The notes under the pieces: generated by a model
Database searches by the model: none
What the model saw: the letters and a program-made list of their open reading frames with translations, nothing else
What the model was told of the DNA's origin: nothing
DNA from: Candidatus Palauibacter polyketidifaciens
Lineage (GTDB): Bacteria; Gemmatimonadota; Gemmatimonadetes; Palauibacterales; Palauibacteraceae
DNA length: 64,000 nucleotides
Assembly: GCF_947581785.1 (NCBI RefSeq)
Contig: NZ_CANPVO010000021.1
Coordinates: 1 to 64,000 of the forward strand
Direction: 5' to 3'
Made by a program: the position numbers and the translations under genes
In this document: piece by piece, positions 25,006-28,686 of the stretch
Layout of the letters: every line of letters starts with the position of its first letter
Numbering within the stretch: position 1 is the stretch's first letter

Positions 25006-25052
25006 CGCGGGTTTGATGGCCCGTTGATGCCCGCACCGATCCTTGTGCCAGA

Positions 25053-25075
25053 GAGGGCGGCAGGGCGTCGCCCTC
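25053..25075 (+). promoter_or_regulatory. Leader hairpin of cassette copy 1
   Basis: A 7-bp inverted repeat GAGGGCG (25053-25059) and CGCCCTC (25069-25075) with a 9-nt loop lies 12 nt before the GGGGAGGTGG ribosome-binding region of the small gene. Copy 2 has the same stem with one bulged G. Conservation in both copies suggests a 5' UTR element. Confidence 0.45.
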
Positions 25076-25097
25076 CGGGATCTCTTAGGGGAGGTGG

Positions 25098-25448
25098 ATG
25101 ATGATGAGGACGAGGAGAAGCACGAGAACGGCGGGGCCGCTCGCCGCGGCGTGGGTCTTCGCGGGGGCCCTGGCGCTCTCGCTGGCGCAGCCGTCCGAGG
25201 CCGCCGCGCAGAGCGAGTGTGGGGGGTACATCTCGGGAGGCCCGAACAATCCGGCGAGTGGAACGCTGGTGGGCTCCAGTCGCGTTACGCTCAGCCTGGG
25301 CGCCGGCGCCGGGGTCGAGCGCCTGGGCTTGAACCTCGGGCTCAACGGCGGCATCACGGTGAGCTTCAATGTCGGCACCTACCGGATGCACAATGGCGGT
25401 GCCCGGAGTTTCCGGTGCGATAACTACACGGAGTGGGACCTCCAGTGA
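25098..25448 (+). CDS. Small secreted two-cysteine protein, copy 1
   Basis: A 116-residue protein I do not recognise. It starts with repeated Met codons behind a strong GGGGAGGTGG, has a signal peptide with a hydrophobic core near residues 14-32, and a likely cleavage site after EAAAQ near residue 39. The mature part starts with one cysteine (C42) close to a GGYISGGPNNPASG segment, has a middle rich in Gly, Leu and Val in alternating order, and ends with a SFRC cysteine, so a single disulfide or cross-link is possible. The C-terminus YTEWDLQ overlaps the start of the following open frame. A paralogue lies 1.6 kb downstream. Confidence 0.65.
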   Translation: MMMRTRRSTRTAGPLAAAWVFAGALALSLAQPSEAAAQSECGGYISGGPNNPASGTLVGSSRVTLSLGAGAGVERLGLNLGLNGGITVSFNVGTYRMHNGGARSFRCDNYTEWDLQ

Positions 25449-26608
25449 CCCGCGCGCGCGGAGTCAACGGTTCGAGGTCGCGTCCCTCGGGGGCTGCGTA
25501 TTCGGCCGCGAACCGTCCCCGGCCACCGAGTTCCGCTCGGTGGCCGGGGACTGCGGCACGCACCGTCGCGCTGGGCCTGGTGGGCGCCTTCGGTCTTTCG
25601 GGATGTAACGAGGACCCGGACGCCGGCGACGATGGACGGACCTATTTCAGTGAAAGCACCACTCAGGCCTACGAAATCGGATTACCTGAAGCCCGTCTCG
25701 GCCCACTGGACGAACGCGTGAGCTTCGGCTCGATCGCCGATATACTGGCCACGCCGAGCGGCTACTTCGTCGCCGACGGGCTCGACCCGCGGATCGTTCT
25801 TCTCGACCGGAACCTCGACCCGGTGCGGATCGTCGGCAGAGAGGGGGAGGGACCGGGAGAATACAAGTTCCCGAGTCGACTGGCCCGGGCCGATGACAGG
25901 ATTCTGGCCCTCGATGGCGGGAACGGGCGAGTCGCGTATCTGACCCTCGAGGGCGATTTCGTGGCCAGCCAGCGGATTCCCGGCTTCGCAAGCGCGGTCG
26001 CCCTGCATCCGGAACTTGGGCTGCTCGTCGCGGGCAGCGAGTTTCCGGACCACTATCTGGCGCGGGTTACGGCGCAGGGGGATGCGGCGTTCGGGCGGAT
26101 CCCGGAGGAGTTGCGCGTCGACGCCGGCGGATTGTTCCGCTGGCCTGTGGATCTGGTCACGGTCACGGCCGATGGCATGATCCATGTCCTCGATGCGGAC
26201 CAACTCGCACTCGTGAGCTTTCGGCCCGACGGAGCGCTCGCGAGCGTCACCTTCCTGCCAAGAGACATGCGGGCCCGCGAATTGGAGAGCGCTCGGGAGA
26301 CCGACGAGGTATTCGGAGGGCCGACCCGGGTCCTCGGCACGCAGATGGTGACCACCCTCCGACCTCTCCAGGACGGTCGACTGTTTGCCGGGATCACGTC
26401 TGTGCGTCCGGACAGTGCGACTACGAAGGGTCTCGTGCTGGACCTGAAGCGTCTCGAGGCGATCCCTCTGATCTTCCCCGCCGACCGCGACCGACAATCG
26501 GCGCGGGGCGCTCGCGTTTACTTGGAGGGACTGGATCGGGCGATGGTCAACCCTATGGCGACTGCGAGCCTTGAAACCGCGCCGGTCGAGCTGGTAGCAC
26601 GGGACTGA
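25445..26608 (+). CDS. 6-bladed beta-propeller lipoprotein
   Basis: A protein of about 387 residues that appears to be a lipoprotein with a beta-propeller fold. A lipobox-like LSGC (Cys near residue 54) ends a hydrophobic stretch. The body contains NHL/6-bladed propeller motifs such as GREGEGPGEYKFP near residue 138, plus repeated D-G-x-hydrophobic strands, and has no catalytic signature. The start is uncertain: GTG at 25445 overlaps the small-gene stop and gives a long, Arg-rich leader before the lipobox, and this leader contains the stem-loop of the cassette. Paralogues of this family are common in Gemmatimonadota. Ligand unknown. Confidence 0.65.
   Translation: MTRARGVNGSRSRPSGAAYSAANRPRPPSSARWPGTAARTVALGLVGAFGLSGCNEDPDAGDDGRTYFSESTTQAYEIGLPEARLGPLDERVSFGSIADILATPSGYFVADGLDPRIVLLDRNLDPVRIVGREGEGPGEYKFPSRLARADDRILALDGGNGRVAYLTLEGDFVASQRIPGFASAVALHPELGLLVAGSEFPDHYLARVTAQGDAAFGRIPEELRVDAGGLFRWPVDLVTVTADGMIHVLDADQLALVSFRPDGALASVTFLPRDMRARELESARETDEVFGGPTRVLGTQMVTTLRPLQDGRLFAGITSVRPDSATTKGLVLDLKRLEAIPLIFPADRDRQSARGARVYLEGLDRAMVNPMATASLETAPVELVARD
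25515..25551 (+). other. 16-bp perfect stem-loop (cassette copy 1)
   Basis: A perfect 16-bp inverted repeat, arms 25515-25530 and 25536-25551, with a 5-nt TTCCG loop. It lies 67 nt after the stop of the small gene, and inside the predicted N-terminal leader of the lipoprotein gene. The equivalent element in copy 2 (27048-27084) differs at three paired positions, each by a change that keeps a G-U pair. No T-tract follows. Confidence 0.65.
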
Positions 26609-26647
26609 TGATGGCCCGTTGATGGCCCCCCGGATCCTAATGTCGGA

Positions 26648-26671
26648 GAGGGGCGGCAGGGTGTCGCCCTC
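26648..26671 (+). promoter_or_regulatory. Leader hairpin of cassette copy 2
   Basis: GAGGGGCG (26648-26655) can pair with CGCCCTC (26665-26671), with one unpaired G in the 5' arm and a 9-nt loop. It corresponds to the leader hairpin of copy 1 and lies in the same place before the ribosome-binding site. Confidence 0.45.
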
Positions 26672-26693
26672 CTGGACCAATCGGGGGAGGTGG

Positions 26694-26981
26694 ATGATGA
26701 TGAGGAAGAAGAGAAACTCGTGTGCGATGGGGCCACGCGCGGCGGCACGGATTTTCGCGGGGGGCCTGGCGCTCTCGCTCGTCCAGCCGTCGGAGGCTGC
26801 GGCGCAGAGCGCGTGTGGGAAGTACATCTCGGGAGGTCCGGACTATCCAGCGTCCGGGACACTGCTGGGCTCCCAGGGGTTCTCCTTCGATTTGGGCTTC
26901 GGTTTTCGCCTGACGTTCAGTGTTGGCACGTACAGGATGCATGACGGATCCAACCTCCACGTCTCGTGTGGCTTCTGGTGA
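26694..26981 (+). CDS. Small secreted two-cysteine protein, copy 2
   Basis: A 95-residue paralogue of the 25098 gene. The ATG run behind GGGGGAGGTGG, the signal peptide (hydrophobic core near residues 17-32, cleavage after EAAAQ near 38), a near-identical SACGKYISGGPDYPASGTL segment and a VGTYRMHDG motif are shared. A cysteine near the end (in SCGFW) replaces the SFRC of copy 1. The Gly/Leu/Val-rich middle is about 15 residues shorter and the C-terminus stops earlier. The signal peptide and the first mature segment are the best-conserved parts. Function unknown. Confidence 0.65.
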   Translation: MMMRKKRNSCAMGPRAAARIFAGGLALSLVQPSEAAAQSACGKYISGGPDYPASGTLLGSQGFSFDLGFGFRLTFSVGTYRMHDGSNLHVSCGFW

Positions 26982-27090
26982 GCCGCGTGCGCGGCGTGAC
27001 CGGTTCGAGGCGGCGTTCCCCGCAGGTTGAGGTTACGGCCGCGCACCGTCCCCGGCCGCCGAGTGCCGCTCGGTGGCTGGGGATGAACTC
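26978..27090 (+). pseudogene. Remnant of the cassette's downstream leader
   Basis: This stretch matches the start of the 25445 reading frame in the same phase (GTGA overlap, then RGV-x-GSR and HRPRPPS-x-ARW), but the lipobox and propeller never follow. It is either a decayed copy of the lipoprotein gene's 5' end or a conserved non-coding 3' region of the small gene, with the coding appearance incidental. I cannot separate the two. Confidence 0.35.
27048..27084 (+). other. 16-bp stem-loop (cassette copy 2)
   Basis: Arms 27048-27063 and 27069-27084 pair over all 16 positions with three G-U wobbles and a TGCCG loop. The same stem in copy 1 has A-U or G-C at those three positions, so each substitution preserves pairing in RNA. 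Confidence 0.65.
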
Positions 27091-27163
27091 ACGGTGTTGC
27101 CTTCCACTCGGACCTCGTCGGACTGAATCGAGCGGTGCTCAGAGCCTTCGGGAGTTAATGGAC

Positions 27164-27191
27164 TTGAAACCGCGCGGATCGCCTGTAGCCT
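27164..27191 (+). promoter_or_regulatory. Candidate promoter of glpK (leaderless type)
   Basis: TTGAAA (27164-27169) and TAGCCT (27186-27191) with a 16-nt spacer end 7 nt before the glpK ATG at 27199. No ribosome-binding site precedes the ATG. Confidence 0.5.
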
Positions 27192-27198
27192 GGGATCC

Positions 27199-28686
27199 AT
27201 GACCGCACCCGCCTTGATCGCGATCGACCAGGGAACGACCTCCACGCGCGCCGTCGCGTTCGATCTCGAGGGGACGGGGGTCGTCAGCGCTCAGCGCGAG
27301 TTGCCTCAGAGTTACCCGAGGCCGGGGAGGGTGGAGCACGATCCCGAGCGCATCCGGGACGACGCGGTCGGGGTGGCGCGGGAGGTCATCGAGGCCGCCG
27401 AGGCGCACGGGTATCAGGTGGCGGCGATCGGCATCACCAACCAGCGCGAGACGACCGTGGTCTGGGAACGCGCGAGCGGCCGGCCGATTCACCCGGCCAT
27501 CGTGTGGCAGGACCGGCGAACGGCGAAGGAATGTGCCGCACTTCGCGAGGCGGGGCACGAGGGGTTGATCGCGCGCCGCACCGGTTTGCGGCTCGATCCG
27601 TACTTCTCCGGCACGAAGCTGGCATGGATCCTCGACAACGTGCCGGGAGCGCGTGAGGCGGCCGGGAAGGGCGAACTGGCTTTCGGGACGATCGACACCT
27701 GGCTGCTCTGGTGCCTGACCGGAGGGCGCGTGCACGCGACGGATGCGTCGAACGCGTCGCGGACCCTCCTCTACGACATCGATGAGGGCCGGTGGCATCC
27801 GGAGCTGCTCGAACTGTTGCGTGTGCCCGCCGGAGTGTTGCCCGAGCTCCGCGATTCCGCCGGCGATTTCGGGGAAACGTCCGAGGGACTCTTCGGCCGC
27901 AAGATCCCGTTGCGGGGCGTTGCCGGCGACCAGCAGGCCGCGCTGTTCGGGCAGGCGGCGTTCGAGCCGGGTGGGATGAAGTTCACCTACGGGACGGGAG
28001 CCTTCGCGCTGCTGAACACGGGCGCGGACCGGCTCGCCTCGCGCCACGGCCTGCTCACGACGGTGGCCTGGCAACTCGGGGGAGAGCGCACGTACGCGCT
28101 CGAGGGCAGCATCTTCGTCGCGGGCGCATCGGTTCAGTGGCTGCGCGATGGACTGGGCATCATTTCCGACGCCGCGGAGACAGAAGCGCTCGCCCGCTCC
28201 GTGGATTCGACGGGTGGGGTCGTGCTGGTCCCCGCCTTCGTAGGGCTGGGCGGCATCCATTGGGATCCGGAAGCCCGCGCCGCTCTGCTGGGAATGACGC
28301 GCGACAGCGGGCGGGCCGAGATCGCGCGGGCGGCGCTCGAGGCGGTCGCCTACCAGTCACGCGAACTGATCGACGCGATGCAGGCCGACGGAGCCCCGCG
28401 ACCGGATGCCTTGCGCGTGGATGGCGGGTTCACGCGAAACGACTGGGCGATGCAGTTTCTCGCCGACATCCTCGACCTCGAGATCGGGCGCCCGGTCGTG
28501 ACGGAGACCACCGCGCTGGGGGCGGCGATGCTGGGCGGCCTGGGTGCCGGCGTATTCGCGGATCTGCCGGAGGTCGCGGCGCTGTGGCGCCACGACTGCG
28601 CGTGGCGGCCCGTCATGGACGCGGAGATGCGCGAAGCGCTCTATTCCGGGTGGCGGCGCGCGGTCGCCCGCGTGCTCACGAACTGA
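27199..28686 (+). CDS. glpK: Glycerol kinase
   Basis: ATP-dependent phosphorylation of glycerol to sn-glycerol 3-phosphate, feeding lipid synthesis or glycolysis. It has 495 residues, normal for FGGY-type GlpK (about 500). Visible motifs are the N-terminal DQGTTSTRAVAFD at 10-22, TNQRETTVVWE near 80, GDQQAALFGQ near 244 and the late GAAMLGGLGAG. The gene is not followed by glpF or glpD, so it stands alone with its own promoter. The ATG start fits the family's opening. Confidence 0.94.
   Translation: MTAPALIAIDQGTTSTRAVAFDLEGTGVVSAQRELPQSYPRPGRVEHDPERIRDDAVGVAREVIEAAEAHGYQVAAIGITNQRETTVVWERASGRPIHPAIVWQDRRTAKECAALREAGHEGLIARRTGLRLDPYFSGTKLAWILDNVPGAREAAGKGELAFGTIDTWLLWCLTGGRVHATDASNASRTLLYDIDEGRWHPELLELLRVPAGVLPELRDSAGDFGETSEGLFGRKIPLRGVAGDQQAALFGQAAFEPGGMKFTYGTGAFALLNTGADRLASRHGLLTTVAWQLGGERTYALEGSIFVAGASVQWLRDGLGIISDAAETEALARSVDSTGGVVLVPAFVGLGGIHWDPEARAALLGMTRDSGRAEIARAALEAVAYQSRELIDAMQADGAPRPDALRVDGGFTRNDWAMQFLADILDLEIGRPVVTETTALGAAMLGGLGAGVFADLPEVAALWRHDCAWRPVMDAEMREALYSGWRRAVARVLTN

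Follow-up and report, generated by a model that had tools for sequence, protein, structure and literature searches.

A 16-bp hairpin kept with a small secreted-protein gene inside the downstream lipoprotein frame, a candidate intercistronic 3′-protective element

The window (the whole 64-kb stretch of DNA that was analysed) contains a predicted operon unit composed of a leader, a gene for a small secreted two-cysteine protein and a gene for a β-propeller lipoprotein, which in single-copy genomes would continue into glpK. A 16-bp hairpin is placed 66 nt past the stop of the small gene and 70-107 nt into the lipoprotein frame, and it is kept with the small gene even where the lipoprotein gene is gone. 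The best explanation, to which we give about an even chance, is that the hairpin acts as an intercistronic 3′-protective element (differential mRNA decay) and lifts the amount of the small secreted protein above that of the lipoprotein. The features of the locus are collected in Table 1.

Table 1. Features of the duplicated locus, in window coordinates
Feature	Position	Strand	Remarks
Leader of unit 1	25014..25097	+	conserved block TTGATRGCCCGTTGATG ... GATCCT plus 5′ UTR; 82% identical to unit 2
Leader stem-loop of unit 1, 9 bp	25053..25075	+	96.5% of cells paired, 16 distinct sequences
RBS AGGGGAGG of small gene 1	25087..25094	+	read from sequence; core invariant in alignment
Small gene 1, 116-aa secreted protein	25098..25448	+	signal peptide conserved (AAA/QSEC); cysteines C41, C107
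Predicted 6-bladed β-propeller lipoprotein, second gene of unit 1	25445..26608	+	GTG start overlaps small gene 1 TGA stop (GTGA)
Terminal stem 1: 16 bp, 5-nt loop, without U tract	25515..25551	+	inside lipoprotein frame
Leader of unit 2	26609..26693	+	direct repeat of unit 1 leader
Small gene 2, 95-aa paralogue	26694..26981	+	signal peptide; both cysteines retained; mature part fast-evolving
Second-lipoprotein 5′ stub, about 41 codons	26978..27100	+	tblastn against lipoprotein start, E 3e-6
Terminal stem 2, second copy of 16-bp stem	27048..27084	+	two to three G-U pairs
Second-lipoprotein 3′ stub, runs into glpK	27163..27200	+	repeat D6; 19-nt repeat before glpK = lipoprotein 3′ end

The two tandem units described in an earlier note on this DNA, each with a gene for a small secreted two-cysteine protein, a ribosome-binding site and a 16-bp stem-loop, were confirmed at 25014-25551 and 26609-27083 with all parts located. 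The direct repeats that they form, 25014-25277 pairing with 26609-26873 and 25433-25550 pairing with 26966-27083, fall in an identity range of 79-82%. In unit 1 the leader is followed by the small gene and the lipoprotein gene, and in unit 2 the leader and the small gene are followed by the stubs of a second lipoprotein gene and by glpK at 27199 (the identities of GlpK and GyrB were confirmed by NCBIfam). The lipoprotein gene had been taken to lie merely between the copies; it instead completes unit 1 as that unit's second gene, with a duplicate left as the stubs of unit 2. Because these stubs match the 5′ and 3′ ends of the lipoprotein gene, and because the TGA of the intact lipoprotein gene overlaps the glpK start as ATGA in single-unit relatives, the comparison shows that the whole two-gene unit was duplicated in tandem and that the second lipoprotein gene decayed afterwards. 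The overlap of the small gene with the lipoprotein gene suggests that the two are co-transcribed. The leader of unit 1 can be aligned across 17-18 copies in the genus, and no sigma-70 consensus promoter was found in the region.

In a midpoint-rooted tree of the small genes, many inner forks of which are weak, the second copies of G000/G004 and of G008/G010/G011 each cluster away from the first copies, a pattern that fits a single old duplication with later losses. The two copies of genome G015 group together (support 99/98), the second lipoprotein gene is less decayed there with 137 codons matched, and this pair is a separate recent duplication or the product of gene conversion. A mobile cassette was considered and rejected, the genome holding two tandem copies with none dispersed and the cassette lying always at gyrB-glpK where the locus is readable. 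A separate assembly of the same species also has the layout, with the first-copy hairpin broken by G-rich junk and an N gap. The public short-read assemblies G009 (L066), G011 (L068) and G235 (L091) fail precisely where the first-copy hairpin lies, with G-rich junk, an N gap or a contig break in its place; gene annotations that span the hairpin in these assemblies will be wrong, and hairpin counts exclude their first copies as assembly failures.

No perfect stem of at least 11 bp (loop up to 12) other than the 16-bp stem occurs in the 64 kb, and in a control of 300 130-nt segments drawn at random from the window the longest perfect stem (loop up to 10) is 9 bp. The two hairpin copies fold with z-scores of -8.7 and -4.7, with 0 of 200 shuffles folding as well, and an Rfam search returned two chance-level matches only and no family. 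From copy 1 to copy 2 the stem differs at three positions (A-U to G-U once and G-C to G-U twice), all of which keep pairing, as the earlier note had stated. It had further taken these differences to point to selection on RNA structure; such selection is supported, mainly by other evidence, whereas the pairing argument is weak, with 139 of 500 shuffles equal. Covariation was set aside as proof of structure since the 15 sequences hold too few changes, among them one double change (C-G to U-A) in G001. It had also been held that the structure would be incidental if relatives lacked the hairpin or carried disrupting changes in it; the hairpin is retained in all five old second copies, whereas non-pairing cells occur in 2 of 15 copies, within the stem in G010b and near the stem base in G008b.

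Selection on the hairpin itself is supported by the comparison of copies, because its codons have the lowest diversity of the frame, because it is retained in copies without the lipoprotein and because it occurs once per small-gene copy. The 12 codons that it covers vary less than any other 12-codon window of the lipoprotein frame, whether all sites or third positions alone are counted, with a third-position diversity of 0.03 compared with a median of 0.31. Divergence among copies is about 24% in the flanks and 3-4% in the hairpin. The old second copies that keep it are all without the lipoprotein, and where comparable their hairpins are 89-100% identical to the partner copy, compared with 56-80% for the spacer; gene conversion could account for part of this identity, but conversion confined to 37 nt would in turn call for an explanation. 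The covariance-model search of relatives proposed in the earlier note matched once at every small-gene copy that could be read; matches elsewhere are unconvincing, two weak ones lying in other genera. A genome-wide terminator or repeat was rejected on the same matches, which are convincing at this cassette alone.

The reading of the hairpin as a protective element is preferred because the hairpin carries every sequence-level feature of the protective class of E. coli, whose members lie 107 ± 56 nt into the downstream gene on average, are without U tracts and have conserved wobble positions (PMC5927463). Stem-loops that likewise have no U tract set subunit ratios in the cip-cel operon (Xu et al., PMC4423207). 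Cleavage would take place in the weakly translated downstream part of the message, 3′-5′ exonucleases would then halt at the stem, and the small-protein message would outlast the lipoprotein message, leaving the secreted protein in excess. In unit 2 the hairpin, shown to be retained, would still cap the small-gene message, though no lipoprotein lies beyond it. Counting against the protective reading are the non-significant covariation of the main hairpin together with the non-pairing cells, the finding that junction hairpins are not general among secreted-protein/propeller pairs and, if the lipoprotein starts at GTG 25445, that its own ribosomes must melt the hairpin.

The main rival, possible in a tentative way, is a partial terminator (attenuator) that would set the flow of polymerase into the lipoprotein gene and in unit 2 would end the small transcript before glpK. 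The position after a short gene, the extreme stability and the end of unit 2 at the hairpin, with glpK starting 114 nt beyond, all agree with attenuation, but a U tract after the hairpin is absent in every copy and U-tract terminators in the region are not above chance. In every intact copy, moreover, the lipoprotein frame begins ahead of the hairpin, which transcripts must therefore pass, and the hairpin is specific to this cassette and no general gene end.

It is unlikely that the hairpin controls translation of the lipoprotein, with ribosomes restarting at the overlapping GTG and the stem slowing or gating elongation or re-initiation. The start of translation is probably GTG 25445, the sole conserved ATG, GTG or TTG in frame before the lipobox, and the GTGA overlap is conserved in all intact copies, as translational control would have it. 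The spacer ahead of the hairpin has an invariant length of 66 nt across all 11 readable copies with the lipoprotein despite about 24% divergence, compared with 64-69 nt in copies without it, where the length changes in two of five; this constancy speaks for the same explanation and suggests that the lipoprotein frame matters. Selection on amino acids is absent from the spacer (pN/pS 1.05-1.14, with 0.39 for the mature propeller), which would suit a poorly constrained n-region. A 14-bp stem also encloses the propeller start codon in the distant paralogue L047. The five old second copies, however, all retain the hairpin with no lipoprotein to regulate.

Action of the element as DNA (a protein-binding palindrome, or a recombination or replication element) and not as RNA is decidedly improbable. 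The sequence is nearly invariant, loop included, and the breaks of short-read assemblies at the hairpin imply that the DNA itself folds strongly; yet the element is found after this small gene alone, two of the copy-2 changes break the symmetry of the DNA while the RNA still pairs as G-U, and the double change in G001 also stands against a DNA element. Conservation of the lipoprotein leader coding sequence (RPRPPSSARWPG) as the only cause retains hardly any likelihood although every intact copy keeps the frame open, because the third positions of the hairpin codons are also the least variable, with synonymous sites equally frozen (pS 0.03, pN 0.04), the neighbouring leader codons unconstrained and the hairpin retained where the lipoprotein is gone.

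The leader carries a second, weaker candidate. A leader hairpin had been claimed for each unit, and the 9-bp stem is present and conserved, whereas its structure is not established: folding is ordinary (z -1.5 and -0.3), and no double-sided changes occur in the 16 distinct sequences. It was rejected as a structured element for its ordinary stability and lack of covariation.

The ribosome-binding sites of the two small genes are AGGGGAGG and GGGGGAGG. Small gene 1 has an open frame in 12 of 12 genus copies, with pN/pS values of 0.40 for the signal peptide and 0.62 for the mature part; first copies are under purifying selection. The old second copies are open in five of five with a mature-part pN/pS of 0.98, and the G015 pair has a value of 1.26; in both the mature parts would be either relaxed or diversifying. 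The two small genes of G015 (L070) have signal peptides 98% identical and mature parts 76% identical, a pattern that may reflect gene conversion or diversifying selection. The protein was confirmed to be more divergent than the signal peptide and hairpins, identity between copy 1 and copy 2 being lowest in the mature part (64%) and higher in the signal peptide (80%), the leader (82%) and the hairpin (89%). Two motifs are common to the small proteins: C-x-x-Y-[IV]-[ST]-G-G close to the start of the mature part, and Y-x-M-x-[DN]-G ... C towards the end. No family was found for the small protein in Pfam, NCBIfam or PADLOC and no significant relative in the PDB, the NVEALA profile PF14055 has no match in this genome, and the AlphaFold2 model, from a shallow alignment, has a pLDDT of 43. 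Of 14 distinct secreted small proteins, 11 have a signal peptide followed by Q (AxA/Q; window 25206-25215 and relatives); the Q-rule is said to hold for Bacteroidetes and not for other phyla (PMC10653852).

The small gene is present between gyrB and the lipoprotein gene or glpK in 12 of 16 genus genomes, with the propeller also present (G009 has a contig break at the hairpin, with the propeller on another contig). It is missing from G003, G005, G012 and G013, where the propeller orthologue is missing too (Fisher p 0.0005 for co-occurrence, relatedness ignored), and the orthologue is also missing in five searched genomes of other genera in the family. The strict co-occurrence within the genus suggests that the small protein and the lipoprotein act together. 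Distant relatives of the small protein are sparse, being found in 19 of 394 phylum genomes (E 0.001), and two named ones are 'Gemmatimonadetes bacterium' metagenome-assembled genomes. Where the neighbourhood is readable a propeller gene lies directly downstream in most, several of these propeller genes matching PF17170, and in G045 (family f6) the neighbour is a transposase-like pair instead.

The match of the lipoprotein to PF17170 (DUF5128) has an E value of 1.2e-4 and 21.8 bits alone, or 22.9 bits with neighbouring matches (cut-off 22.9), and is partial, spanning 39-140 of the 321-position model. Scores of 36.1 and 23.8 were obtained for relatives that have the same small protein. The AlphaFold2 model of the propeller, with three sequences in the alignment, has a pLDDT of 33 and is unusable. 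DUF5128-like propeller genes are very numerous in some genomes of the class (G045, G064 and G072), with more than 200 first-look candidates in G045.

Another pair carried by this genome (L115), a secreted cysteine protein followed by a propeller and unrelated in sequence, has an 18-20-bp junction stem at L115:1308-1380. The stem is retained in G009 and G002, and in G004 (80% identity) one A-U is changed to G-C, a compensatory change, two G-U pairs are changed to G-C and one inner mismatch is present, which is better covariation evidence than that of the main hairpin, from few sequences. At this locus G000 and G008, which are different species, are 100% identical across the 231 bases searched, suggesting a recent exchange. 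The junction stem at L121 was found within the same species alone. Stem length in 17 secreted-protein/propeller pairs shows no overall difference from that at 42 other propeller genes (Mann-Whitney p 0.50), and stems of at least 14 bp occur in 3 of 17 pairs compared with 0 of 42 controls (p 0.02, for a cut-off picked after looking). A general rule of junction hairpins, an impression from few loci with differing window placements, failed this common-window comparison and was rejected; such hairpins are recurrent, not universal. On the reverse strand of L182:1-2901 (G048), two tandem 73-aa secreted cysteine-rich peptides are encoded directly upstream of a propeller gene. NVEALA peptides of Bacteroidota (PF14055) are small, secreted and cysteine-containing, often in tandem and near propeller genes, and the L182 layout resembles theirs.

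A wider proposal, which we regard as rather doubtful, is that the two-cysteine proteins and propeller lipoproteins of Gemmatimonadota are functional pairs (for example a ligand and its surface receptor or carrier), with a dedicated and independently re-evolved junction hairpin setting the ratio of the two, and that selection on the hairpin together with the small gene is strong enough for it to persist after the lipoprotein gene is lost. The locus offers a natural test of the protective-hairpin model outside model bacteria, with the hairpin present with and without the downstream gene in one operon and across the genus. A further point of interest is the secreted family linked to propeller lipoproteins, apparently undescribed, in which second copies change fast while the signal peptide and hairpin stay fixed. 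As far as could be found, neither the small-protein family nor its pairing with a propeller lipoprotein is described in the literature. The earlier note knew of no described system with this layout, which holds for the gene pair, whereas the placement of an intercistronic hairpin within the beginning of the following gene is already described (PMC5927463).

The hairpin is of a type known from other operons, and the RNA part is otherwise an ordinary kind of element. In common with the malE-malF class (Dar and Sorek 2018, PMC5927463), a stable hairpin follows the 5′-most gene near the start of the downstream frame, has no U tract, is conserved at wobble positions and leaves the downstream gene in the operon; here, in contrast, the hairpin outlives the downstream gene, is far stronger and more constant in sequence than is typical, and is known from sequence alone. 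The cip-cel operon (PMC4423207), a case of selective RNA processing and stabilisation, also has stem-loops without U tracts, there at the 3′ ends of highly expressed genes, and differs in encoding a complex with measured processing sites, where the present case is a secreted protein and a lipoprotein read from the DNA only. The small proteins are, like the NVEALA peptides (PF14055), small secreted cysteine peptides, but without sequence relation to them. The lipoprotein and most of the partner proteins match DUF5128 (PF17170) near or above its cut-off.
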